From Pseudomonas sp. (GTDB taxonomy: Bacteria; Pseudomonadota; Gammaproteobacteria; Pseudomonadales; Pseudomonadaceae), in contig JAURXE010000356.1 in NCBI GenBank assembly GCA_030654635.1, positions 1-11,266 of the forward strand: 11,266 nucleotides of DNA, written 5' to 3'. A program made the position numbers and the translations under genes. Under the pieces are notes generated by a model. It was not told the DNA's origin and ran no database searches. It saw only the letters and a list, made by a program, of their open reading frames with translations. Shown here one piece after another: positions 1-11,266 of this stretch; position 1 is the first letter of the stretch; every line of letters starts with the position of its first letter.

Positions 1-346
1 ACGTGGCTATCACGGCAGCGCCGCTGAAGGGTTTAACGATCCAGCCTTTGATACCGGCGGCCTTACCGCGCTCTTTCATGCTTGGGCTGTTTTCAGTAGT
101 CAGCATGATGATATTGACCGTGGTATTGCGCAGCTCGCCACGGATTTTCTCCGCCATGGTCAGGCCGTCCATGTTCGGCATGTTGACGTCGGAAACCACC
201 AACTTAATCGACGGATCAGCCCGCAATTTGTCCAAGCCATCTTTACCGTCTACCGCAGAGGTGACCGTAAGACCATTCGCTTTGAGGAAGTCGCACACTT
301 CGTTGCGCACAGTGCTTGAATCGTCGACTACCAATATTTGAGCCAT
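1..346 (-). CDS. CheY-like single-domain response regulator (C-terminus outside window)
   Basis: This is a stand-alone receiver domain, of which 115 residues lie inside the window. The protein begins MAQILVVDDSSTVR. It has the acidic pair D8/D9, the phospho-acceptor D53 (in SDVNMPNMDG), the switch Thr T83 and the conserved lysine K105 in GWIVKPF, so it should be a functional phosphorylatable CheY. The ATG at 344-346 is preceded by an AAGGAACTCC ribosome site. It lies 49 bases after the receiver-CheX gene on the same strand and is probably in the same operon. By family it would take phosphate from a CheA-type kinase and act on a motor or other output. No kinase is seen here, though more genes may follow to the left. 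The GWIVKPF form is common in CheY proteins of chemosensory clusters. The exact output (flagellar or other) cannot be told. Confidence 0.93.
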   Translation of the reverse strand, partial: MAQILVVDDSSTVRNEVCDFLKANGLTVTSAVDGKDGLDKLRADPSIKLVVSDVNMPNMDGLTMAEKIRGELRNTTVNIIMLTTENSPSMKERGKAAGIKGWIVKPFSGAAVIAT

Positions 347-395
347 TTAGGAGTTCCTTGCTTACTTATGAAGTGTTTAGTTGAGTTGCAGTGGA

Positions 396-1373
396 TCAAA
401 ACATTTCCAGCTCACCGGAGTCGACCAGCGACTCTACCGAGGGATTTTCGGAGAACTGATCGGGCGACCACGACAAGTTAAACACGAAGCGTTGGAACAC
501 TGAAACTGGTGCGGCTTGCGAATCGTCCAACGGTACCAAATTGTATTTAAGGCAGAGCTGTGGATCGTCAGAACCAAAGGATATGTAGCGCCGCTGGTGA
601 TTAATAATGATTGGCACTTGCGTCTGGGTCAGCCCGCTCATATCGTCGCGAAAGCCTACATAACGATTCTTGAACGACCCCCAAACCAGATTGGTAGCCT
701 CGCCTAGCACGCTATTAAGGTCACGAAAAGTCAGCGGCTCAGCATCCGTTCCGGCGGCATGGCGCAGCAGGTTCAACATCCGCTCTTCTTCGGTCTGCAG
801 CATCATGTAACCGCGACACCAGTTACTTTCGATGGCGATCATGCTGAACACTTCGCCATAGATGATCTGATCTTTAACCAGATAGGGTGCTTCGACTTCT
901 ACGGCGCAGGTTTTAAACAGCGTTTGCAGCGAGCTAAGGGTCATCTCAGTAATACCGCGCACTAAATCAGTGGGGTACACGCGGCTAAAGATTGATGAAT
1001 CAAGAACCGACTTAAACTGCTCCAACTCCGATAAGTTAAATGCGGCGCAGAACATGCTGATGTCGGAGCTTTGTAGGTCGGCGAGGCTTGCCTCACCATC
1101 GCGACGCAAGAAGATCGGTAGTTCCGGGCGCGCGGCATGGATTGCATGCGCCAGTGTCAGGCCCATGGCCTGACCACCATAATTTTCATACAGCAGAATG
1201 CCGCCCAAATCGACATTTGAGCGCAAAATGGCCATTACTCCACCCTGGCTGCCAAGGTTGGGTTTAATCCCCAGCAACCGACTGTCTTCACAAAGCTGCT
1301 TGATCTGCTCGAAATGTTCGGATGCATCGTCCAGTACCAGGACTTTGCTCATCACCAGTGTTGCGTCAGTCAT
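396..1373 (-). CDS. Degenerate receiver fused to CheX-like phosphatase domain
   Basis: This 325-residue protein has two parts. Residues about 9-130 look like a receiver: KVLVLDD supplies the acidic pair D15/D16, and FNLSEL near 112 matches the end of a receiver fold. The strand that should end in the phospho-acceptor Asp reads ILLYEN (59-64), and the usual Lys-Pro is Ala-Ala (110-111), so it is probably a pseudo-receiver. Residues about 140-310 resemble CheX, a CheY-P phosphatase family. The catalytic-type E-x-x-N motif is E225-A-T-N228, in LGEATNLVWG. The protein ends in GELEMF, nearly the same as the end of the neighbouring CheX-like product. The ATG at 1371-1373 has an AAGGGG site 7 bases upstream; the internal Met8 is an alternative start. 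It lies between the interrupted CheX-like gene (56-base gap) and cheY. Inferred role: dephosphorylating or binding the adjacent CheY. Confidence 0.82.
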   Translation of the reverse strand: MTDATLVMSKVLVLDDASEHFEQIKQLCEDSRLLGIKPNLGSQGGVMAILRSNVDLGGILLYENYGGQAMGLTLAHAIHAARPELPIFLRRDGEASLADLQSSDISMFCAAFNLSELEQFKSVLDSSIFSRVYPTDLVRGITEMTLSSLQTLFKTCAVEVEAPYLVKDQIIYGEVFSMIAIESNWCRGYMMLQTEEERMLNLLRHAAGTDAEPLTFRDLNSVLGEATNLVWGSFKNRYVGFRDDMSGLTQTQVPIIINHQRRYISFGSDDPQLCLKYNLVPLDDSQAAPVSVFQRFVFNLSWSPDQFSENPSVESLVDSGELEMF

Positions 1374-1396
1374 GTGTGCCCCTTTTTCTTATATAA

Positions 1397-1404
1397 ATAT
1401 CGGC
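1397..1404 (-). promoter_or_regulatory. Possible internal FliA-type -10 element
   Basis: The minus strand reads GCCGATAT in the gap between the two CheX-like genes, a 7/8 match to the sigma-28 -10 consensus GCCGATAA. The expected -35 at 11 bases' spacing (AATTGTGT) matches only about 4 of 8 positions, so this may be chance. If used, it would give a leader of about 15-20 bases for the receiver-CheX gene and bypass the stop codon in the upstream gene. Confidence 0.25.
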
Positions 1405-1429
1405 CATGTACAGCCACACAATTCCGTTT

Positions 1430-2002
1430 TCAGAAAAGCTCCAGCTCGCCTGCGGACTCCTCCTCCGCCTCGTAGGTGTCAATTCGAAAATCCAACGAAG
1501 TGTCAGCGCCAGTGCACAAACAGTAGGTAAGATTGAAGCGCATTGAGTCGTTAATTACCACCTCATAGCGTTGAACATACTCGGGTTCAAGGGCTGATGC
1601 ATAGTTGGCGCAAGAGCTTTCGAGCATATAGGGCGTCGACATGCCGATATGCGGAAAGGGCACGCCAAGGCCTCGATTGACCGCCCCACAGACCATATTG
1701 ACCAGCTCCGCTTAGGCATCACTCAGCGCCTGCACATCCAGATCAGGCGTCTGGCTCCTAGTCATGCGCACCATATGCTCATTGGTTGGCGCATCATCAT
1801 TGAACTGAAACAGCGCCACGATGCGAAACAGATAGGTAGAAATGGTCAAAACCACCAATTGCTGATTAGTAGTCGATAGCACTTCTTTATCAGCCGGCAA
1901 TTTGCTCAGGACACAAGTGTCCTCATCGCCACTGACACTGTTGGCCCGTACGGCTTTTTCAAATAACCATTCGATACCCGTCTTAGCACTTTGACTGATC
2001 AT
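1430..2002 (-). pseudogene. CheX-like protein gene interrupted by an in-frame TAA
   Basis: One continuous reading frame of 190 sense-or-stop codons carries a single internal TAA at 1712-1714 (codon 97). The first part (residues 1-96) begins MISQSAKTGIEWLFEK. Directly after the stop the frame continues AELVNMVCGAVNRGLG, which contains the CheX/CheC-type E-x-x-N motif (E99, N102), and then MSTP (121-124), a position often S/T-P in CheX. The product ends in GELELF. The ATG at 2000-2002 lies 5 bases after the stop of the MCP-like gene, with GGGAGGGG upstream. A restart is possible at the ATG at 1694-1696, which has a GGAG 9 bases upstream (1706-1709). Such a product would begin just after N102, so neither fragment would hold the motif. 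The stop may be a real mutation or a sequence error; the intact frame on both sides favours a recent event or an error. Confidence 0.8.
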
Positions 2003-2007
2003 GACTG

Positions 2008-2784
2008 TCAGCCCCTCCCGCCCAGCGCATCGCGGATTTTGTCATTCGCCGCGCGCAAGCCAAACACTGCGGTTTGAATCATTTTGCCGCTGGCCTGCAG
2101 ATCCTGGAAGGTCGTGGTGGTAACTAGGTCGTTTTTATCGAGGTTCTCACGGTAATCGCGCGAGAGCTTTTCAGAGGTAATTGCCAGATCACGGACCCCA
2201 TCCGCCACCACCGCAAAGCCGCGGCCTTGCTCGCCGGCACGAGCGGCCTCAATCGAGGCATTGAGCGCCAGCATCACCACCTGTTTAACGATGACCGCAA
2301 ACTCGGCGTTTTTGCTCTTCATGACCTTATTGTTGACCAGAATCGCTTCCATCTCTTCATGCCAGCGCTCAATGGTTTTTACCATTGCCAGCAATCCGGT
2401 AATTTCGCCACGCAAGCGCTCATTCTCGGCACCGAGGGTGGTTCTAATCTGCGCCATCTCCGACTCGCAATGCCGCAGCGACTGCTCTAAGCCGTTTTCA
2501 CGATCGGCGCCAGAGTGACGCTGGTTTTCTAACTCGCTCTGCACCCGATCTAGCTCTTTTTCTATTTTTTGCCGTGCACTGAGCGCCTCTTTAGCCTGGC
2601 TCTCCTGCTGGGCTTTTACCTCGGCGACGGACATGCGCTGCGACAGTTCGGCAATACTGGCGTCCTTGGCGCTGAGTTGCGCCTGATTGTGCTTATCGCG
2701 CGACGCCGCACTTAATGACACGAAGAACGCACCGGCGCCCGCGCCGACAACAAACAGCACAACCCAAATCAATGAGAACCCCAT
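2008..2784 (-). CDS. Small membrane-anchored MCP-like signalling protein
   Basis: This 258-residue protein has one N-terminal membrane segment (about 3-24), a long charged coiled coil (about 30-150), and then the hairpin tip of methyl-accepting chemotaxis proteins: [18 protein letters not shown] (172-189) followed by [12 protein letters not shown]. It has no periplasmic ligand domain, no HAMP and no C-terminal methylation pentapeptide, and is about half the usual MCP length. Aligned to E. coli Tsr, residues matching N381, E385, R388 and E391 are kept (N175, E179, R182, E185). The F373 trimer-contact position is K167, and the usual E of VVADEVR is G196. The ATG has GAGGGG 7 bases upstream. It is the first gene of the operon, 5 bases before the CheX-like frame, with a FliA-type promoter upstream. 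It probably scaffolds signalling at the membrane or couples to a kinase; what it senses is unknown. Confidence 0.85.
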
Positions 2785-2921
2785 CTTCTATCCCCTCAGA
2801 ACTTAAAACACCTCGGCACACCGTCATCCGAGCGTATGGAGCAACAGCGCAAAACAGCAACTCGAGCGCAAACAACCATCAACACCTTCAACTTGCGCCT
2901 ATGTGCTTGTTCTCATAGAGC

Positions 2922-2948
2922 TTATCGGTATCAAAGGGTAAAGCATTA
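2922..2948 (-). promoter_or_regulatory. FliA (sigma-28) type promoter for the MCP-like operon
   Basis: The minus strand reads TAATGCTT (2948-2941), then 11 bases, then ACCGATAA (2929-2922). The sigma-28 consensus known from E. coli is TAAAGTTT-N11-GCCGATAA. The match is 6 of 8 and 7 of 8 with exact spacing. Transcription would begin near 2913, leaving a leader of about 130 bases before the MCP-like ATG. This places the chemosensory operon with late flagellar genes. Confidence 0.65.
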
Positions 2949-3003
2949 GTCAAAAGCATAGTTCCTTTAAAAGTTTTGCCCGTCAATCAACCCCACCCCA
3001 GCA

Positions 3004-3017
3004 TGGTGCGCGCACCA
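3004..3017. repeat. Perfect 14-base palindrome, possible enhancer/operator site
   Basis: TGGTGCGCGCACCA is a perfect palindrome centred about 127 bases upstream of the predicted sigma-54 start site. That is a usual distance for an NtrC enhancer. NtrC sites have the half-sites in the other order (GCACCA-N3-TGGTGC), so the palindrome itself is not a standard NtrC site. A weak NtrC-like match begins inside it (GCACCA-GAT-CAGCGC, 3012-3026; right half 3 of 6). The regulator is unknown. Confidence 0.35.
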
Positions 3018-3110
3018 GATCAGCGCAGACTGCTTTAAACAAGTGCGCAAACAGGTCAATGACGATCAGGAAAGTGAGCAAAGCCCCCATAAAACCCGGA
3101 TCAGCATAAG

Positions 3111-3128
3111 TTGGCACAACCCCTGCAA
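3111..3128 (+). promoter_or_regulatory. Sigma-54 (RpoN) promoter of nirBD-nasA-cobA
   Basis: TTGGCACAACCCCTGCAA has the -24 GG at 3113-3114 and the -12 GC at 3125-3126, with exactly 10 bases between, as RpoN requires. TTGGCAC matches the consensus -24 block fully. The start site should lie near 3138, which puts the whole antiterminator and terminator inside the transcribed leader. Nitrogen control through NtrC would be expected from known nitrate assimilation operons. Confidence 0.8.
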
Positions 3129-3154
3129 TAGCCAAATCGACAATTTAATAAAGC

Positions 3155-3197
3155 GCAGCCATCAACGAAGACGGCTGCACTTCCCGAGAGAACGGGA
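3155..3197 (+). promoter_or_regulatory. Two-hairpin ANTAR (NasT-type) antiterminator RNA motif
   Basis: There are two stem-loops 3 bases apart. The first (3155-3178) pairs GCAGCCATC with GACGGCTGC, with one A-C mismatch, and has the hexaloop AACGAA (3164-3169). The second (3182-3197) pairs TCCCG with CGGGA and has the hexaloop AGAGAA (3187-3192). Both loops have A at position 1 and G at position 4, the signature of RNA targets of ANTAR-domain antiterminators such as NasT. A terminator follows 8 bases later. Family knowledge: NasT, freed from NasS when nitrate or nitrite is present, binds such leaders and allows read-through into nas/nir genes. NasS and NasT are not in this window. Confidence 0.82.
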
Positions 3198-3204
3198 CTT
3201 GGAC

Positions 3205-3247
3205 AAAGGCGTCCTCGCTAGGTAACTAGCGGGGCGCCTTTTTTTTT
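3205..3247 (+). terminator. Intrinsic terminator in the nirB leader (attenuator)
   Basis: A stem of about 16 pairs runs from AAAGGCG at 3205 to CGCCTTT ending at 3241. It has a four-base GTAA loop (3222-3225), one G-T wobble and a bulged T at 3212. Nine consecutive T (3239-3247) follow from the last stem pairs onward. It lies between the sigma-54 promoter and nirB, so it would stop transcription before the operon unless an antiterminator acts. It is the control point for the ANTAR motif just upstream. Confidence 0.88.
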
Positions 3248-3280
3248 CAATTCCTGGCAGCAGATGCGTGGAGATAAGCC

Positions 3281-5737
3281 TTGAACAAACTCAAGCTAGT
3301 AATGATCGGTAACGGCATGGCCGGGGTTCGCACCCTCGAAGAGCTGCTCAAGCTCGCCCCTGAACTCTACGACATTACCGTCTTCGGGGCCGAACCGCAC
3401 CCCAACTACAACCGCATCCTGCTGTCACCGGTTTTGGCCGGCGAGCAAAGCTTCGAAGAAATTGTACTCAACGACCTGAGCTGGTACGCCGACAACAACA
3501 TTCGCCTGATGCTCAATCGTAAAGTAGTGGCGATCGACCGGAAAAAACGCATAGTCACCGCCGAAGATGGCAGCACCGCCGAATATGATCGCCTGCTGAT
3601 CGCCACCGGTTCCAACCCCTTTATTCTGCCGGTACCGGGCAACAAGCTGCACGGTGTGATCGGCTATCGCGACATCGCTGACACCCAGATGATGATCGAT
3701 ACCGCGAAAACCCACAGCCACGCAGTGGTCATCGGCGGCGGCCTGCTCGGCCTGGAAGCGGCCAACGGCCTCAAACTGCGCGGCATGGATGTGACCGTGG
3801 TGCACTTGGCCGACTGGCTAATGGAGCGTCAACTGGATAAAACCGCCGGTAAGCTGCTGCAAACTGCACTGCAAGAACGCGGCATTCATTTTCGCACCAA
3901 CGAACAAACCGAAGAGCTGATGGATAACGGCGAAGGCCGGGTCTGTGCGGTTAAATTTAAAAGCGGTGACGTTATCCCAGCCGACTTGGTGGTGATGGCT
4001 GCCGGGATTAAGCCCAACACCGACCTGGCCGAAAAATCGGGGATTCCGTGCAACCGCGGGATCTTGGTCAGCGACACCATGCAAACCTACGACCCACGGA
4101 TTTATTCGATTGGCGAGTGTGCCAACCACCGGGGCACCGCCTACGGCTTGGTGGCCCCGCTGTTTGATCAGGCCAAGGTCTGCGCAAACCACCTGGCGCA
4201 ACTCGGCTTTGCTCGCTACCAAGGCTCGGTAACCTCAACCAAACTGAAAGTCACCGGCATCGACCTGTTTTCCGCCGGCGAATTCATGGGCGCCGAAGGT
4301 ACCGAAACCATCACCCTCTCCGACCCGATTGGCGGCGTCTACAAGAAGCTGGTGATCAAAGACGACATCTTGGTCGGCGCCTGCCTGTACGGCGACACTG
4401 CCGACGGCGGCTGGTATTTTCGCCAAGTGAAAGAAAACGCCAACATCAGCCAGATCCGCGATCACCTGATGTTCGGCGAACAGGCTCTTGGCGATGCTGG
4501 CCACCAAGGCCAGAACAGCGCCGCGAGCATGTCCGACAGCATGGAAGTCTGCGGTTGCAATGGCGTGTGCAAAGGCACGATCGTTAAAGCCATTCAAGAG
4601 AACGGTCTGTTCAGCGTTGACGAAGTTAAAAAACACACCAAGGCGGCCAGTTCGTGTGGCTCTTGTGCGGGTCTGGTTGAGCAGATTCTGATCAGCACCG
4701 TTGGCGGCGCCGCCGATGTTAAGCCGAAAAGCGAAAAAGCCATCTGCGGCTGCAGCGAACTGAACCACGGCCAGATTCGCAAACTGATCAGTGCCAAGCA
4801 CCTGATCAGCATGACTCAAGCCATGACCGAAATGGGCTGGACCACGCCAAACGGTTGCAGCACGTGCCGCCCGGCACTGAACTACTACTTGCTCTCCACC
4901 TGGCCAGGCGAAGCTAAAGATGATCCGCAATCGCGCCTGATCAACGAACGTGTCCACGCCAACATCCAAAAAGACGGCACTTACTCGGTAGTCCCACGGA
5001 TGTGCGGCGGGGTGACTAACTCATCGGAGCTGCGGCGCATCGCCGACGTGGCCGACAAGTACAACGTGCCAATGGTTAAGGTTACCGGCGGTCAGCGGAT
5101 CGACCTGCTGGGGATCAAAAAAGACGACCTGCCGGGCGTCTGGAAAGACCTCGGCATGGCCTCCGGGTACGCCTACGGCAAGTCCATTCGCACCGTTAAG
5201 ACCTGCGTCGGCAGCGAGTTCTGCCGCTTCGGCACACAAAACTCAACGCAAATGGGCATCGACCTGGAGCAGGCGCTGTCCTACATGTGGTCGCCACACA
5301 AAGTTAAATTGGCGGTCTCCGGCTGCCCGCGCAACTGCGCCGAATCGGGGATTAAAGACGTCGGCATCATCGGCGTCGAATCCGGCTGGGAGCTGTATAT
5401 CGGCGGCAACGGCGGGATCAAGACCGAGGCCGGCGAGTTCTTCGTCAAGGTCAAGACTGCCGAGGAGGTCATGGAATACAGCCTGGCCTTCCTCCAGCTC
5501 TATCGCGTAGAAGCCTTCTACTTAGAGCGCACCGTGCACTACCTGCAGCGTGTCGGCATGGAGCACATCAAGAAGGCGGTGCTGGAGGATGAGGCCAACC
5601 GCAAAGTGCTACACGCTAACCTGCTGTTCTCACTGTCCTTCTTGCAGGACCCGTGGCAGGAGCTGCTGTCGAAGCCGCAACTGAGTAAAGAGTTTGAGCG
5701 CATTGCCGTCGTACAAGTTGAAGGAGAGCACGCATGA
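3281..5737 (+). CDS. nirB: Assimilatory nitrite reductase [NAD(P)H], large subunit
   Basis: This 818-residue cytoplasmic enzyme reduces nitrite to ammonium, passing electrons from NAD(P)H through FAD and iron-sulfur centres to sirohaem. Domains in order: the FAD fold with G10-N-G-M-A-G15; the NAD(P) fold with VIGGGLLGLEAA near 150-162; two BFD-type [2Fe-2S] modules (C424, C426, C459, C462; and C489, C491, C526, C529); and a sirohaem/[4Fe-4S] domain with C642-x5-C648 and C682-x3-C686. The length is normal for NirB. The start is TTG, preceded by GGAG 7 bases upstream (3270-3273); MNKLKLVMIGNG is the expected N-terminus. Its TGA overlaps the nirD ATG in ATGA, so the subunits are probably translationally coupled. 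Expression should be set by the sigma-54 promoter and the leader attenuator. Confidence 0.97.
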   Translation: MNKLKLVMIGNGMAGVRTLEELLKLAPELYDITVFGAEPHPNYNRILLSPVLAGEQSFEEIVLNDLSWYADNNIRLMLNRKVVAIDRKKRIVTAEDGSTAEYDRLLIATGSNPFILPVPGNKLHGVIGYRDIADTQMMIDTAKTHSHAVVIGGGLLGLEAANGLKLRGMDVTVVHLADWLMERQLDKTAGKLLQTALQERGIHFRTNEQTEELMDNGEGRVCAVKFKSGDVIPADLVVMAAGIKPNTDLAEKSGIPCNRGILVSDTMQTYDPRIYSIGECANHRGTAYGLVAPLFDQAKVCANHLAQLGFARYQGSVTSTKLKVTGIDLFSAGEFMGAEGTETITLSDPIGGVYKKLVIKDDILVGACLYGDTADGGWYFRQVKENANISQIRDHLMFGEQALGDAGHQGQNSAASMSDSMEVCGCNGVCKGTIVKAIQENGLFSVDEVKKHTKAASSCGSCAGLVEQILISTVGGAADVKPKSEKAICGCSELNHGQIRKLISAKHLISMTQAMTEMGWTTPNGCSTCRPALNYYLLSTWPGEAKDDPQSRLINERVHANIQKDGTYSVVPRMCGGVTNSSELRRIADVADKYNVPMVKVTGGQRIDLLGIKKDDLPGVWKDLGMASGYAYGKSIRTVKTCVGSEFCRFGTQNSTQMGIDLEQALSYMWSPHKVKLAVSGCPRNCAESGIKDVGIIGVESGWELYIGGNGGIKTEAGEFFVKVKTAEEVMEYSLAFLQLYRVEAFYLERTVHYLQRVGMEHIKKAVLEDEANRKVLHANLLFSLSFLQDPWQELLSKPQLSKEFERIAVVQVEGEHA

Positions 5738-6060
5738 ACTGGCTGAATATTTGCGCACTGGAAGAGATCAACGTGCTCGGTTCGCGCATAGTCGACGGCC
5801 CGAAAGGCGATATCGCCATCTTCCGCACGTCCAATGACGAAGTCTTCGCCCTTGATGACCGCTGCCCGCACAAAGGCGGGCCGCTGTCACAAGGGTTGAT
5901 CTACGGCAAGCGAGTGGCCTGCCCGCTGCACAACTGGCAGATCGACCTGGAAAGCGGTGAAGCCCTGGCGCCAGACGTCGGTTGCGCCCACAAATACCCG
6001 GTAAAGCTGGAAAACGGTCGGGTGTTCCTGCAGCTGAAAACCGTCACCAAGTGCGCCTGA
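5734..6060 (+). CDS. nirD: Nitrite reductase small subunit, Rieske-type
   Basis: This 108-residue partner of NirB belongs to the NirD family with a Rieske fold. The [2Fe-2S] ligands are present as C44-P-H46 and C63-P-L-H66, spaced as in true Rieske proteins; some NirD proteins, such as that of E. coli, lack them. It starts inside the nirB stop (ATGA overlap), with AAGGAGAG just upstream. The cytoplasmic NirBD complex makes ammonium from nitrite. A 104-base gap with two hairpins separates it from nasA. Confidence 0.96.
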   Translation: MNWLNICALEEINVLGSRIVDGPKGDIAIFRTSNDEVFALDDRCPHKGGPLSQGLIYGKRVACPLHNWQIDLESGEALAPDVGCAHKYPVKLENGRVFLQLKTVTKCA

Positions 6061-6067
6061 GGGCACC

Positions 6068-6083
6068 GCACAGGAGTCTGTGC
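6068..6083 (+). repeat. Small hairpin after nirD
   Basis: GCACAG and CTGTGC flank the loop GAGT, giving a perfect 6-pair stem 7 bases after the nirD stop. There is no T tract, so it is not an intrinsic terminator. With the hairpin at 6123-6143 it may protect or separate the nirBD part of the message. Confidence 0.45.
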
Positions 6084-6122
6084 ACCGCTGAGCAATAGCC
6101 TGCGGACTTGCACAGCGCTGTC

Positions 6123-6143
6123 GGGCTGCGCCTTGCGCAGCCC
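6123..6143 (+). repeat. Strong GC-rich hairpin upstream of nasA
   Basis: GGGCTGCGC and GCGCAGCCC form a perfect 9-pair stem with a CTT loop, ending 7 bases before the AGGAA ribosome site of nasA. No T run follows, so termination is unlikely without Rho. It could affect message stability or nasA translation, setting different amounts of NirBD and NasA. Confidence 0.55.
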
Positions 6144-6164
6144 CCTTCGACAGGAAACAGAGCC

Positions 6165-8909
6165 ATGTCAGCGAAGATTCAAAGCAGCACCTCAGCCACG
6201 CAAACCACCCGTTCGATCTGCTGCTACTGCGGCGTGGGCTGCGGTGTGCTCATCGAACATGACGGCGAGACCATCCTCAACGTCAAAGGCGATCCCGAGC
6301 ACCCGGCCAACTTTGGCAAGCTGTGCAGCAAGGGCTCCAGCCTGCACCTAACCGGTGACCTCAGCGCCCGCGCCCTGTACCCAGAGTTGCGCCTGGGTAA
6401 ACAACTGGCGCGCAGCCGCACCGACTGGGACAGCGCACTGGATCACGCAGCCCATCAATTTGCCGCCACCATCGCCGAACACGGCCCAGACAGCGTGGCT
6501 TTTTATGTCTCCGGCCAGCTGCTCACCGAGGACTACTACGCCTTCAACAAGCTGGCGCGGGCCTTGGTCGGCACCAACAATATCGACAGCAACTCGCGAC
6601 TGTGTATGTCGTCTGCGGTAACCGGCTACACCCGCAGCCTCGGTGCCGACGCGCCGCCGTGCAGCTACGAGGACATCGAGCAAAGCGACTGCGTGATGAT
6701 TGTCGGCAGCAACATGGCTTACGCCCACCCGGTGCTGTTTCGCCGTCTGGAGGAGGCCAAGGCCAAGCGCCCGCAGATGCAAATTATTGTGATCGACCCG
6801 CGGCGCACCGACACCTGCGAGCTGGCTGACCTGCACCTGGCGATTCAACCGGGCACCGATGTCGCGCTGTTTCACGGCATCTTGCACATCCTGATGTGGG
6901 AAGGCTGGCTCGACCGCAGCTTTATCGAGCAGCACACCGAAGGCTTCGATGCACTGAAAACCCTGGTGCGTGATTTCACCCCGCAAATGGTGGCCGAGCT
7001 GTGCGGCATTAACGTCGTCGACCTGCAAACCTGCGCCCACTGGATCGGCACCAGCCCAAGCTTCCTGTCGCTGTGGTGTATGGGCCTCAATCAGTCGAGT
7101 GCTGGCAGCGCCAAGAACAGCGCGTTGATCAACCTGCATTTGGCCACCGGGCAAATTGGCCGCGTCGGTGCCGGGCCGTTTTCCCTTACCGGCCAACCAA
7201 ACGCCATGGGCGGCCGCGAAACCGGCAGCATGGCTAACCTACTGCCCGGCCACCGCCACGTTGCCAATGCTGCGCACCGCGGCGAAGTTGCCAACTATTG
7301 GGGTGTTGAACAACTACCCGAGAATACCGGCCTAACCGCGGTAGAACTGTTTGACGCGGTCGGCGACGGGCGCATCAAGGCGCTGTGGATTGCCTGTACC
7401 AATCCTGCGCAATCGATGCCGGACCAGAACAAGATCCATCAAGCCCTCGCACTCTGCCCCTTTGTGGTGGTGCAAGAAGCTTTTAACACCACCGAGACCT
7501 GTCATTACGCCGATTTGTTATTGCCGGCCAGTAGCTGGGGCGAGAAAGAAGGCACCCTGACCAACTCCGAGCGGCGCATCAGCCACGTACGGCCGGCCAT
7601 CACGGCGCCGGGCCAAGCGCGCGCCGACTGGTCGATTACCCTCGACTTTGCTCGCCGCTTAGAACAACGCCTGCGCCCTACTCTGCCCAGCCTGTTTACC
7701 TTCGACAGCCCACAAGCGCTGTTCGACGAATACAAAGGCCTGACCGCCCAGCGCGACCTGGACATGTCGGGCCTGAGCTACAGCATTTTGGATCAGCAAG
7801 GTCCACAACAATGGCCGTTTCGCAGTGACCTCCAAAGCGGCACCCCCCGCCTGTATGCCGATGCGCAGTTTCCAACCGCCTCCGGTCGCGCCCAGTTTGT
7901 TGCCGACCCTTATCGAGCACCGGCCGAAAAACGCGATGCACGCTTCACCCTTAGCCTGAACACCGGGCGCTTGCGTGATCAGTGGCATGGCATGAGCCGC
8001 ACCGGCACTGCGGCGCGCCTGTTTGGCCATGTGGAAGAGGCGCTACTGAGCCTGCACCCCGACGAAATGCGCCGGCGGCGCTTGCTCGACGGTCAACTGG
8101 TCAGCCTAAAAAGCCGGCGTGGCAGCTTGGTCTTGCCGGTGCAGAGCGATGACAGCGTGCGCTCAGGCCACGCCTATCTGCCGATGCACTGGGGCAATCG
8201 CTTCCTCAAAGGTCTGGGAACCAATGTATTGACCTCCCCGGCGTTTGACCCACTGTCCAAGCAACCCGAACTCAAACACGCCAGCGTTGAAGTCAGCAAA
8301 GTGGATCTGCCTTGGCAGCTGTTTGCACTGGTGGAAGGCGACGTACAAAACCGCCTCAGCGCCCTGCGCCCGCTGCTGGAGGATTTCGCCTATGCCAGCC
8401 TGGGCTTGGCCGGACGTGAACGGCCAGCGCTACTGATTCGCGCCGCAGCAGCCAGCGCACCGGACAGTCAATTACTGGCACACATCGACCAACTGCTGGG
8501 CCTGGATGAAGGCCCTATCATGGCCTACGACGACCCGCGCAAAGCCGTCGGCAAGCGCGTGCGTATAGAAGAGGGTCGCATTACCGCTATCCGCCTGGCC
8601 GGCGAAACCGCCGCCCGTGACTGGCTCAAGAACCTGTGGAGTGAAGGACGCGCCGATGAAGAGCTGCGCCGCTGGCTGTTAGCGCCGCTCAGCACACCAC
8701 CCGGCAACAGCGGCACCAGTACCGGCAGCAAGACCCTGTGTAGCTGCATGAATGTCAGCAGCGCTGCCATTTGCGCCGGCATCCAGCGCGGCCTCGACCT
8801 TAACGGCCTCAAGCAAGAGCTTGGCTGCGGTAGTCAATGCGGCTCCTGCGTGCCCGAAATTAAACGCCTGCTGGCGACCCCGGTCGCTCAGCCGCCCGCA
8901 AAACTGTGA
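6165..8909 (+). CDS. nasA: Assimilatory nitrate reductase, molybdopterin catalytic subunit
   Basis: This 914-residue cytoplasmic enzyme of the bis-MGD molybdopterin family reduces nitrate to nitrite, supplying NirBD. The N-terminal [4Fe-4S] site is C19-x2-C22-x3-C26 and C54 (GKLCSKG). The likely molybdenum ligand is C147 in NSRLCMSS. The molybdopterin-binding core fills about 60-680. The C-terminus has a BFD-type [2Fe-2S] domain (C859, C861, C892, C895). Just before it, residues 790-820 (DPRKAV to W820) align without gaps to NirB 348-378, part of the reductase C-terminal segment. The chosen ATG has AGGAA at 6152-6156; a frame-open TTG at 6108 would add 19 residues across the hairpin and lacks a good site. 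No separate flavoprotein donor subunit is in the operon, so its electron donor is not shown. Confidence 0.95.
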   Translation: MSAKIQSSTSATQTTRSICCYCGVGCGVLIEHDGETILNVKGDPEHPANFGKLCSKGSSLHLTGDLSARALYPELRLGKQLARSRTDWDSALDHAAHQFAATIAEHGPDSVAFYVSGQLLTEDYYAFNKLARALVGTNNIDSNSRLCMSSAVTGYTRSLGADAPPCSYEDIEQSDCVMIVGSNMAYAHPVLFRRLEEAKAKRPQMQIIVIDPRRTDTCELADLHLAIQPGTDVALFHGILHILMWEGWLDRSFIEQHTEGFDALKTLVRDFTPQMVAELCGINVVDLQTCAHWIGTSPSFLSLWCMGLNQSSAGSAKNSALINLHLATGQIGRVGAGPFSLTGQPNAMGGRETGSMANLLPGHRHVANAAHRGEVANYWGVEQLPENTGLTAVELFDAVGDGRIKALWIACTNPAQSMPDQNKIHQALALCPFVVVQEAFNTTETCHYADLLLPASSWGEKEGTLTNSERRISHVRPAITAPGQARADWSITLDFARRLEQRLRPTLPSLFTFDSPQALFDEYKGLTAQRDLDMSGLSYSILDQQGPQQWPFRSDLQSGTPRLYADAQFPTASGRAQFVADPYRAPAEKRDARFTLSLNTGRLRDQWHGMSRTGTAARLFGHVEEALLSLHPDEMRRRRLLDGQLVSLKSRRGSLVLPVQSDDSVRSGHAYLPMHWGNRFLKGLGTNVLTSPAFDPLSKQPELKHASVEVSKVDLPWQLFALVEGDVQNRLSALRPLLEDFAYASLGLAGRERPALLIRAAAASAPDSQLLAHIDQLLGLDEGPIMAYDDPRKAVGKRVRIEEGRITAIRLAGETAARDWLKNLWSEGRADEELRRWLLAPLSTPPGNSGTSTGSKTLCSCMNVSSAAICAGIQRGLDLNGLKQELGCGSQCGSCVPEIKRLLATPVAQPPAKL

Positions 8910-8919
8910 GAATCTTAAA

Positions 8920-9657
8920 ATGAACGGAAAAGTCTGGTTGGTCGGCGCAGGTCCCGGTGATCCGGAGTTATTAACACTCAAAGCGGTGCGCGCACTGCAG
9001 CAAGCACAAATCGTCATGATCGATGATCTGGTCAATCCCGCAGTACTCGAGCACTGCACCAATGCCCGGGTCATCTCGGTCGGCAAACGCGGCGGCTGCC
9101 GCTCAACGCCACAAGCCTTTATCCATCGCCTGATGCTGCGCTATTCGCGCCAAGGTAAATGCGTGGTGCGCCTGAAAGGTGGCGATCCGTGTATTTTCGG
9201 CCGCGGCAGCGAAGAAGCCGACTGGCTGCAGCAGTTCAGTATCGAAGTCGAAATGGTCAACGGCATTACCGCAGGTCTGGCCGGTGCGACCAACTGCGGC
9301 ATTCCTCTAACGCTACGCGGCGTCAGCCGTGGCGTCACGCTGGTCACCGCCCACACCCAAGATGACAGCAGCCTGAACTGGGCCGCACTGGCGCAAGGCG
9401 GCACAACACTGGTGGTTTACATGGGCGTGGCCAAACTAAGCGAAATCCAGGGCAGCCTGTTGGCCGGAGGCATGCGCAACGACATGCCGGTGGCCATGAT
9501 CGAGAATGCCTCACTGCCCACCCAGCGCGAATGCCGCAGCAGCCTTGCGCAGATGCAACTGGATGCCCACAGCTTTCAGCTGAAAAGCCCAGCCATCCTG
9601 GTTATCGGGGAGGTTGCCGCCAGCAGCCAAGCCATCACTCTGGCCCAAACAGCCTAA
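8920..9657 (+). CDS. cobA: Uroporphyrinogen-III C-methyltransferase (SUMT)
   Basis: This 245-residue enzyme methylates uroporphyrinogen III twice with S-adenosylmethionine to give precorrin-2, the shared precursor of sirohaem and cobalamin. The N-terminal SAM-site loop is GAGPGDPELLT (9-19). RLKGGDPCIFGRGSEE near 84-99 and the IPLTLRGVSRG region match SUMT conserved blocks. The CysG dehydrogenase/ferrochelatase half is absent, so this is the single-domain form. The ATG lies 10 bases after the nasA stop, with only a weak GAGA ribosome site, so coupling to nasA translation is likely. An upstream ATG at 8752 in this frame would overlap nasA by 158 bases and add residues unlike SUMT. Being last in a nitrite reductase operon, its main job is probably sirohaem supply for NirB. 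Confidence 0.95.
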   Translation: MNGKVWLVGAGPGDPELLTLKAVRALQQAQIVMIDDLVNPAVLEHCTNARVISVGKRGGCRSTPQAFIHRLMLRYSRQGKCVVRLKGGDPCIFGRGSEEADWLQQFSIEVEMVNGITAGLAGATNCGIPLTLRGVSRGVTLVTAHTQDDSSLNWAALAQGGTTLVVYMGVAKLSEIQGSLLAGGMRNDMPVAMIENASLPTQRECRSSLAQMQLDAHSFQLKSPAILVIGEVAASSQAITLAQTA

Positions 9658-9660
9658 CCG

Positions 9661-9676
9661 CTTCGCACCTGCGAAG
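9661..9676 (+). repeat. Short hairpin just after cobA
   Basis: CTTCGCA and TGCGAAG are perfect inverted 7-base arms around CC, 3 bases after the cobA stop. No T run follows. It may protect the 3' end together with the terminator 10 bases further on. Confidence 0.4.
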
Positions 9677-9685
9677 ATGTACTTT

Positions 9686-9708
9686 GCCCGGCTAAGCCGG
9701 GCTTTTTT
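9686..9708 (+). terminator. Intrinsic terminator of the nirB-nirD-nasA-cobA operon
   Basis: GCCCGGC-TAA-GCCGGGC forms a perfect 7-pair GC stem with a 3-base loop, followed by six T (9703-9708). It lies 28 bases after the cobA stop on the plus strand. Confidence 0.92.
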
Positions 9709-9714
9709 ATGGGC

Positions 9715-9748
9715 AAAGAAAAGCCCGACCTAAGCCGGGCTTTTCTTT
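9715..9748 (-). terminator. Intrinsic terminator of oprF, probably bidirectional
   Basis: AAAGAAAAGCCCG (9715-9727) pairs perfectly with CGGGCTTTTCTTT (9736-9748). Read on the minus strand, the GC stem is followed by TTTTCTTT, ending the oprF message. Read on the plus strand it also ends in TTTTCTTT, so it is a back-up for cobA. Its core is a near copy of the hairpin at 9686-9708. Confidence 0.85.
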
Positions 9749-9751
9749 GCT

Positions 9752-9775
9752 GCAGACTCAGATTACTGAGCCTGC
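9752..9775 (-). repeat. Hairpin in the oprF 3' untranslated region
   Basis: GCAG-A-CTCAG and CTGAG-C-CTGC pair around the loop ATTA: nine pairs with one A-C mismatch. It lies between the oprF stop and the terminator. A second short palindrome, CACAGTA-T-TACTGTG (9783-9797), covers the oprF stop codon. Such stems often protect the 3' ends of abundant porin messages. Confidence 0.45.
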
Positions 9776-9789
9776 ATCACTACACAGTA

Positions 9790-10821
9790 TTACTGTGCAG
9801 CTTCAACACCAGCTTCTACGCGGCGGTTAACAGCGCGGCCGGCTTCAGTTGCGTTATCAGCAACTGGTTTGGCTTCGCCGTAACCAACAGCGTTAACACG
9901 GTCGCCAGCTACACCGTACTGGTTAACCAGTACAGCGCGAACGGCATCAGCACGACGAGTCGACAGACCTTGGTTGTAAGCGTCGGTGCCAACGGAGTCA
10001 GTGTAACCTTCAACGGTGGTGGTGGTTTTTGGATACTGTTGCATGAAATCAGCCAGGCTCTTGATATCGCCATAGCTGTCTTGCTTAACAACGGCCTTGT
10101 CGAAATCGAACTTAACGTCCAACTCAACACGCACAGCTTCAGCAACCACTACGCAACCGGTCGAATCAACAGTGGCGTTGGCTTCAGTGCCTGGGCACTT
10201 GTCGTCAGCATCACAAACGCCATCGCTGTCGCTGTCGGTGCAAACTTCAGCAACCGGGGCAACTGGAGCAGCAGGCTTGGTGCCGCCGCCGAAGTTAACG
10301 CCCAGGCCGAGGCCGGCCATGTATTCGCTGTTGCCAGCGTCGATATTGTACATGCCATCCAAGCTAGCCTTGGCGAACACGTTTTCGGTGAAGTAGTACT
10401 TCACGCCAGTACCAACGTTAGCGAAGGTGCTGCGATCGCGGCCACCAGTCGAATCTTGACCAATGCTCTGGTGAGCAAAGCCAGCAGAAACGTATGGACG
10501 CAGACCAACACCTGGGGTGCCGAAGTTATAAACGGCATCAAGGGCGCTCAAGCTACCCTTGATGTTTTTGCCGCTGTCTTCGCCACGAATATCGTGATAT
10601 TCGCCGTAGGACAAAGCCAACTCAACGTCGTCAGTCAGGTAGTAGCCCAGCGAGCCACCAAGCAGGTTACCGTGATTACCAAGATCACGGCTGCTATCAG
10701 GAGCGTAGTACTTTGCAAAAGCTTCAGCTTCAACAGCGCCTTGACCCTGGGCCATAACGTTGATCGAAGTAGCAGCTACCAGGCTGGCGATGACTACGCC
10801 CAGAGTGTTTTTCAGCTTCAT
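9790..10821 (-). CDS. oprF: Major outer membrane porin OprF (OmpA family)
   Basis: This 343-residue outer membrane protein links the membrane to peptidoglycan and forms a slow, nonspecific pore. It starts MKLKNTLGVVIASLV, a signal peptide likely cut after VMA (24). An eight-strand barrel domain follows to about 175, including TDDVELALSYGEYHD and FGTPGVGLRPYVSAGFAHQ, nearly identical to P. aeruginosa OprF from memory. A Pro-Ala linker and a Ca-type Asp-rich segment carry four cysteines (C194, C203, C209, C223). The OmpA peptidoglycan-binding domain fills about 233-335, with DVKFDFDK and NQGLSTRRADAVR. The start at 10819-10821 has AGGAA 7 bases upstream; an ATG 17 codons further up gives no signal-peptide start. 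It follows sigX on the same strand and has its own terminator. Confidence 0.97.
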   Translation of the reverse strand: MKLKNTLGVVIASLVAATSINVMAQGQGAVEAEAFAKYYAPDSSRDLGNHGNLLGGSLGYYLTDDVELALSYGEYHDIRGEDSGKNIKGSLSALDAVYNFGTPGVGLRPYVSAGFAHQSIGQDSTGGRDRSTFANVGTGVKYYFTENVFAKASLDGMYNIDAGNSEYMAGLGLGVNFGGGTKPAAPVAPVAEVCTDSDSDGVCDADDKCPGTEANATVDSTGCVVVAEAVRVELDVKFDFDKAVVKQDSYGDIKSLADFMQQYPKTTTTVEGYTDSVGTDAYNQGLSTRRADAVRAVLVNQYGVAGDRVNAVGYGEAKPVADNATEAGRAVNRRVEAGVEAAQ

Positions 10822-10937
10822 CCGTAAATTCCTATCGTGGTGAAATTGTTCAAAATTGCAGCTGTACGACAATCATGTACAACTTAGCGGCGAACTTTAA
10901 CACAGCAAAGCCCGACATAAAGGAACATTTTGCCTAA
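10822..10937 (-). promoter_or_regulatory. oprF: sigX-oprF intergenic region with inverted repeat
   Basis: These 116 bases separate sigX from oprF and should hold the oprF promoter or promoters; in Pseudomonas oprF is known to be partly SigX-dependent. I see an inverted repeat TGTAC-N9-GTACA (10863-10881) and an AT-rich stretch near the start codon. I cannot place -35 and -10 boxes with confidence. No T-tailed hairpin ends sigX, so some read-through from sigX into oprF is likely. Confidence 0.4.
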
Positions 10938-11266
10938 CTATTCATCGGTTGCATCAGCAAATTTCTCACGCAAGCGATCCAGTGCTCGCTTGTAACGCAT
11001 TTTTGTGGCACTAAGGCCCATATGCATGATGTCAGCAATCTCTTGAAACTCCAGCTCTGCGACAAACCGTAGCACGAGGATCTCGCGATCAATCGGGTTG
11101 ACATGCACCAGCCAACGATCCAGCCCTACACGGTCTTCGGCCTTAACCGGTTTCTCTTCTATCGCTTCTTCCAGCGGATCAAGGCTCAATGCATCAAGCA
11201 AGCGGCGTTTGCGGCGCTCTTTACGGTATTGGGTAATACACTCGTTATAAGTAATGCTATAGAGCC
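10938..11266 (-). CDS. sigX: ECF sigma factor SigX (N-terminus outside window)
   Basis: The last 108 residues of an ECF (sigma-70 group IV) factor are in the window, open to the right edge. The visible part starts in region 2 (LYSITYNECITQYRKERRKRR, the end of region 2.4). It then has an acidic linker and region 4 with the DNA-binding helix-turn-helix: DREILVLRFVAELEFQEIA followed by MGLSATKMRYKRALDRLREKF. It ends ATDE. Position directly upstream of oprF on the same strand identifies it as SigX, which in Pseudomonas drives oprF and cell-envelope genes. The start codon and region 2.1-2.3 are not in view. Confidence 0.9.
   Translation of the reverse strand, partial: LYSITYNECITQYRKERRKRRLLDALSLDPLEEAIEEKPVKAEDRVGLDRWLVHVNPIDREILVLRFVAELEFQEIADIMHMGLSATKMRYKRALDRLREKFADATDE

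Follow-up and report, generated by a model that had tools for sequence, protein, structure and literature searches.

The stretch of DNA analyzed here (the window; the entire 11,266-bp contig C449 of a 791-contig Pseudomonas genome) carries four of the five genes of a module that appears to be a compact, stand-alone form of chemosensory signaling and is not an ordinary che cluster. The gene set and its co-occurrence, the domains, the conserved catalytic residues, the missing CheW domain, and a C-terminal tail common to two of the products are computed observations. With somewhat more confidence than doubt, we favor a model in which these genes form a self-contained, insulated CheA-like pathway, such that a sensor kinase (K) would signal to a dedicated CheY (Y) and the signal would be switched off by two CheX proteins (X and R) that dock via their tails. 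The fifth product (M) is a short MCP-like protein. The features are as follows.

1 to 10, no strand: contig end; these 10 bases are shared with the first part of contig C439.
2 to 346, minus strand: Y, a CheY truncated at the contig end, with 115 of its approximately 121 residues present (Response_reg, E 9.9e-23).
396 to 1373, minus strand: R, a fusion of a receiver fold and CheX, 325 aa (PF13690, E 1.7e-10).
399 to 416, minus strand: GELEMF, the C-terminal tail of R (tail pattern in 47/47 complete R rows).
690 to 701, minus strand: E-x-x-N motif of R, spanning E225 to N228 (no variation at these two residues across 36 rows).
1430 to 2002, minus strand: X, a single-domain CheX gene of about 190 codons with an in-frame TAA at 1712 to 1714 (read from the sequence; the copy in related locus L004 takes the CheX fold).
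1433 to 1450, minus strand: GELELF, the C-terminal tail of X (tail pattern in 44/44 X rows).
1697 to 1708, minus strand: E-x-x-N motif of X, directly after the stop (the corresponding E and N do not vary across 34 rows).
2008 to 2784, minus strand: M, a short membrane MCP-like protein of 258 aa without a sensor domain (MCPsignal, E 5.4e-18, residues 163 to 246).
Outside the window, G000 contig C439, 113 to 2515: K, the CheA-like kinase and fifth gene (contig overlap and alignment to L004).

Based on the open reading frame list and Pfam, the order of transcription in the window is M, X, R, Y. All four genes of the original prediction are real and lie on one strand (minus), but X is not a single open frame in this genome. 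The cluster does continue to the left of position 1, as had been suspected. When the window is reverse-complemented, its final 10 bases are identical to the first 10 of C439, and the ends of both contigs align to adjoining stretches of L004; K is therefore the next gene beyond position 1. The K of this genome is 97% identical to that of L004, and beyond it, on the opposite strand, lies a PP2C-protein kinase gene. Where a complete ordinary che cluster might have stood directly to the left, there is instead one noncanonical, CheA-like membrane kinase. The original prediction had remarked that neither CheA nor CheW was in view. The apparent lack of a CheA was an effect of the contig end; the lack of CheW stands, since none of the 10 CheW-family matches found in the genome falls on C449 or C439. 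The same genome also carries a flagellar-type CheY (L077) and CheZ. A second CheX-type cluster, different from the module, lies on contig C137 (L002, 1340 to 2780) and, as judged by eye, comprises a CheX-like frame of 164 aa and, after it, one frame bearing a receiver and one encoding a membrane protein.

K is a protein of 801 aa with a four-helix-type sensor, HAMP, Hpt, and a CheA-type P3-P4 core. In the L004 kinase, Pfam reports HAMP, Hpt (E 3.7e-9), and HATPase_c (E 1.2e-8), with 4HB_MCP and TarH falling just under their cutoffs; the L010 kinase has an additional weak PAS match. Input domains differ among the kinases, with 7TMR-DISM in the second kinase of L017 (Pfam) and GAF in the kinase of genome G484, and because these and the four-helix-type/HAMP arrangement occur in different kinases, the sensor end is exchanged while the core stays constant. 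Locus L017 itself has two module-type kinases (2184 to 4583 and 7391 to 10336, one with 7TMR-DISM) flanking one module. One cluster of frames at the kinase (F4) turned out to be an antisense frame over it in L010 and was discarded as a separate gene.

Several lines of evidence relate this kinase to CheA and also set it apart. A profile of the K core matches 16 PDB sequences, 15 of them CheA and one, named BRIC1, matching the Hpt part. The CheA matches cover P1 (about 18 to 117) and/or P3-P4 (134 to at most 368), and nothing after. The assignment of P3 is tentative and comes from the start of the profile match at 134, before P4, Pfam H-kinase_dim not being reported. The Hpt His and the ATPase boxes are invariant in 29 rows. 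What K lacks is the CheW (P5) domain: in 44 module kinases, the protein ends 1 to 46 residues after the core, as against 148 to 329 residues in 37 CheA rows; none of the three kinases searched with Pfam has a CheW match; and PF01584 (CheW) is absent from the best 120 of 7816 relatives of the K core. The source names of these relatives vary, with “Hpt domain-containing protein” at one extreme and “chemotaxis sensor kinase CheA” at the other. A tree built with IQ-TREE, unrooted and with several long branches, sets the 44 module kinases on one side of a branch, apart from the 37 CheA rows, with 100/100 support; the module kinases may have arisen inside CheA. According to Berry et al. 2023 (PMC10782961), 100% of CheA proteins have a CheW domain, P3 always occurs together with it, and CheA is called sensor-less. 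By that definition, K, with its own membrane sensor, falls outside CheA, even though its mode of action is probably alike.

The two CheX-type proteins foreseen by the original prediction are borne out. In AlphaFold2 models, both R and X take the CheX fold known from Thermotoga, Borrelia, and Vibrio vulnificus structures, the intact L004 copy having been modeled for X since the window copy is interrupted, and both proteins retain E-x-x-N in every complete row. R scores 41.3 bits against PF13690, for which the cutoff is 27. The score of X is below that cutoff, at 26.1 bits for the intact L004 copy and 24.7 bits for the window copy read through its stop, and X is assigned to CheX because of its fold and motif. 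What distinguishes the pair from the known CheX is that there are two per module, that R has a receiver-fold domain (approximately residues 7 to 132) ahead of its CheX domain, and that both end in a GELELF-like tail; the count for R leaves out 3 incomplete rows. Three ordinary CheX proteins inspected (L106 to L108) lack this tail. Conserved motif and fold suggest that X and R are CheY-P phosphatases. The shared tail probably serves for docking, most plausibly on Y, by analogy to the binding of CheZ to CheY. CheZ ends in VDDLLxSLGF or close to it (24 rows), which resembles letters before and in the R tail in 39/47 rows, by a pattern chosen after looking. The CheZ fold is not known to be related to that of CheX; the idea of a tail is all that is shared.

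Could X be a true pseudogene in a module that is decaying in this genome? Its two pieces, 1712 to 2002 and 1430 to 1696, belong to one reading frame split by the TAA, and neither piece alone matches Pfam. We consider decay very improbable, given that each of the four nearest relatives (L004 to L007) has an uninterrupted frame, that the remaining module frames, including that of K, are open, and that the stop is seen in a single 791-contig assembly and may be an assembly or read error. In another locus, L052 (4911 to 5766, from a metagenome-assembled genome [MAG]), it is the R gene that is broken, giving one frame of 203 aa and another of 73 aa.

M resembles MCPs in its coiled coil and in one half of the MCP tip, the two regions in which its profile matches MCP structures; its MCPsignal match covers only model positions 43 to 126 of 172. 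It differs from them in having no sensor domain, a short second helix, and its own conserved C-terminal block, NDxxTTxTFQDxQAxGxM, which is nearly invariant in 27 rows. The membrane helix was judged by eye, and the ligand-binding domain and methylation helices appear to be lacking, as read from the length and the alignment. The tip retains N, I, E, A, A, R, G, and GxGFxxVA in 43/43 rows. Ordinary MCP tips carry a QTN stretch; in M, whose tip is altered in its N-terminal half, QVV or QVI mostly stands in its place, preceded by K or R. A CheZ-like site in M was also considered, as the FQD block resembles CheZ by eye, and was dropped when hhalign, which did pair the two FQD stretches, gave a probability of 0.4% (E 0.16).

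Y is a receiver domain with all of the phosphorylation residues (D8, D9, D53, T83, and K105), each kept in at least 90% of 44 related rows. Set beside 23 rows of flagellar CheY whose genes lie near cheZ, it has Trp in place of Tyr before IVKPF and other letters on the helix 4, strand 5, and helix 5 side, the putative FliM-binding face.

A search for related loci with R as the query gave 50 loci, in Gamma- and Betaproteobacteria, in MAGs labeled only Proteobacteria or bacterium, and in two spirochaetes. A kinase-core match is present in 44 of them, and because 40/50 hold all five genes, the set is beyond chance. The gene orders are K M X R Y (n = 25), K R Y M X (n = 7), M X R Y K (n = 5), and K on the other strand (n = 3). 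In five loci (L016, L025, L027, L044, and L048), the module runs into a contig end. The full set is not required in every locus, since L010 and L035 have K, R, and Y without M or X, with sequence present on both sides, and L042, L051, and L053 have R only, without K. In L010 and L035, M and X are missing together, and the two may come and go as a pair; in the spirochaete loci (L051, 4584 to 5537; L053, 6001 to 6954), R has a GxIELF tail and no other module genes nearby. Across three different gene orders, X follows M and Y follows R wherever both are present, which suggests that M-X and R-Y are physical pairs. The family distances also correlate in all ten pairwise comparisons (39 to 42 loci, r 0.58 to 0.82, five cut or broken loci dropped), and 0/2000 permutations gave values as high, shared descent contributing to r.

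In a class sample of 274 genomes, R matches at E 0.001 or better in 10, over the full length in 4 (the genome under study included) and in short, partial form in the other 6. The K core at 1e-30 is matched in 193 genomes of this sample, with full-length matches at 5 places in the same 4 genomes as full R; the next listed matches span P3-P4 only, as those of an ordinary CheA would. Both full kinase matches of genome G288 contain a stop. In a family sample, 2/198 genomes match at 1e-20. A search of a plasmid collection gave six matches, on Burkholderia and Caballeronia replicons, and the two inspected were without annotated genes. No description of the five-gene set was found in titles and abstract openings of the open-licence literature, a scope that does not show its absence from print.

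In total, we posit the following sequence of events. K would sense at the membrane and then phosphorylate its own Hpt His; this kinase, comprising sensor, HAMP, PAS-like segment, Hpt, and P3-P4, would hand the phosphate to Y. X and R would both dephosphorylate Y, each docking, probably on Y itself, via the common C-terminal tail, and M may anchor or regulate X at the membrane. Because nearly all carriers have flagellar genes, flagellar behavior is the likeliest field of output. FliM is found in 47/49 R-holding genomes (those of the three R-only loci included) versus 142/274 genomes of the class sample, a comparison among genomes that are not independent. Of the two R-holding genomes without FliM, one has FliG and the other does not; G030, a genome that may be incomplete, has no match to FliM, FliG, or CheZ.

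The same flagellar association, and the retention of N, E, R, and GxGFxxVA at the M tip in all 43 rows, would also fit an accessory branch of the flagellar array, in which M joins CheA-CheW by its tip while X and R drain or reset the flagellar CheY. The original prediction had raised a possibility of this kind, an accessory module that sinks or resets CheY phosphate at the membrane. The retained E-x-x-N and the encoding of X beside M speak for that part of it. We nonetheless regard a branch of the flagellar array as unlikely: the module has its own kinase and its own CheY, which travel with the CheX genes, this CheY is unlike the flagellar one, CheZ is already present in 43/50 genomes (including the one studied here), and M has an altered stretch at the QTN position. 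Because of the dedicated kinase and the dissimilar CheY, resetting of the main CheY is not our leading reading.

Alternatively, does the pathway govern cyclic-di-GMP or surface life and not the flagellar motor, such that the link to flagella reflects lifestyle only? A short way downstream of the module and on its strand, GGDEF and/or EAL proteins are encoded in L029 (6390 to 8942), L030 (7327 to 9285), L050 (5611 to 7473), and L046 (8145 to 9557), the tyrosine that precedes VVKPF in flagellar CheY is absent from Y, and one carrier is without FliM or FliG. Such a neighbor is shown, however, in just 4/50 loci (three more members of a loose cluster were left out of this count), GGDEF and EAL genes are generally abundant, and the near-universal FliM of the carriers points the other way. 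We judge this alternative to be slightly less likely than an accessory branch of the flagellar array.

To generalize the favored pathway of a dedicated kinase and CheY further, we speculate, more tentatively than for the pathway itself and with doubt slightly outweighing belief, that the module represents a CheW-free, array-free branch of chemosensory signaling, built from a CheA-type kinase with interchangeable sensors, a dedicated CheY, and two tailed CheX proteins, one of them recruited by an MCP turned phosphatase scaffold. If this were true, such a branch would stand as a functioning link between ordinary two-component systems and chemotaxis arrays. A conserved family of sensor-bearing, CheA-like kinases that lack a CheW domain and are accompanied by a pair of CheX proteins would illustrate how chemosensory signaling can be simplified or, alternatively, what it may have looked like before arrays. 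The module also offers a small, testable system in which to study how CheX is regulated and how CheY phosphatases may use short docking tails.

To the right of the module (3281 to 11264), the window holds what we take, from the translations, to be nirB, nirD, nasA, cobA, an OprF/OmpA-type porin gene, and a sigma factor gene. In L004 to L006, and in L007 as far as its contig reaches, nirB flanks the module on one side and the PP2C-kinase gene on the other, with the module on the opposite strand. Among 11 loci of relatives with the PP2C-kinase gene, 6 have the start of nirB approximately 0.3 to 0.45 kb from its end, leaving no room for the module, and in the remaining 5, nirB was not seen within the stretch examined. 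The GC content of the module genes is 0.51 to 0.56 versus 0.58 to 0.62 for nirB, nasA, cobA, and the PP2C-kinase gene; that of the OmpA-type gene is 0.53. Because 6 of the 11 relatives have no room for it and its GC content is lower, the module in these Pseudomonas seems to be an acquired block inserted in the nitrate-assimilation cluster.

Given these neighbors, is nitrate the signal? We set this idea aside, as the surroundings of the module are different in the Pseudomonas genome G484, and only 5/50 loci have nirB-like members (cluster F9), one of these being a 381-aa oxidoreductase-like frame in L044. The five genes are in the order M X R Y K in G484 and K M X R Y in G056, the latter likewise in other surroundings. 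In both genomes, PP2C-like frames recognized by eye lie within a few kilobases of the module (L118, 12818 to 14521, in G484; L119, 4002 to 4766, in G056), possibly by chance.
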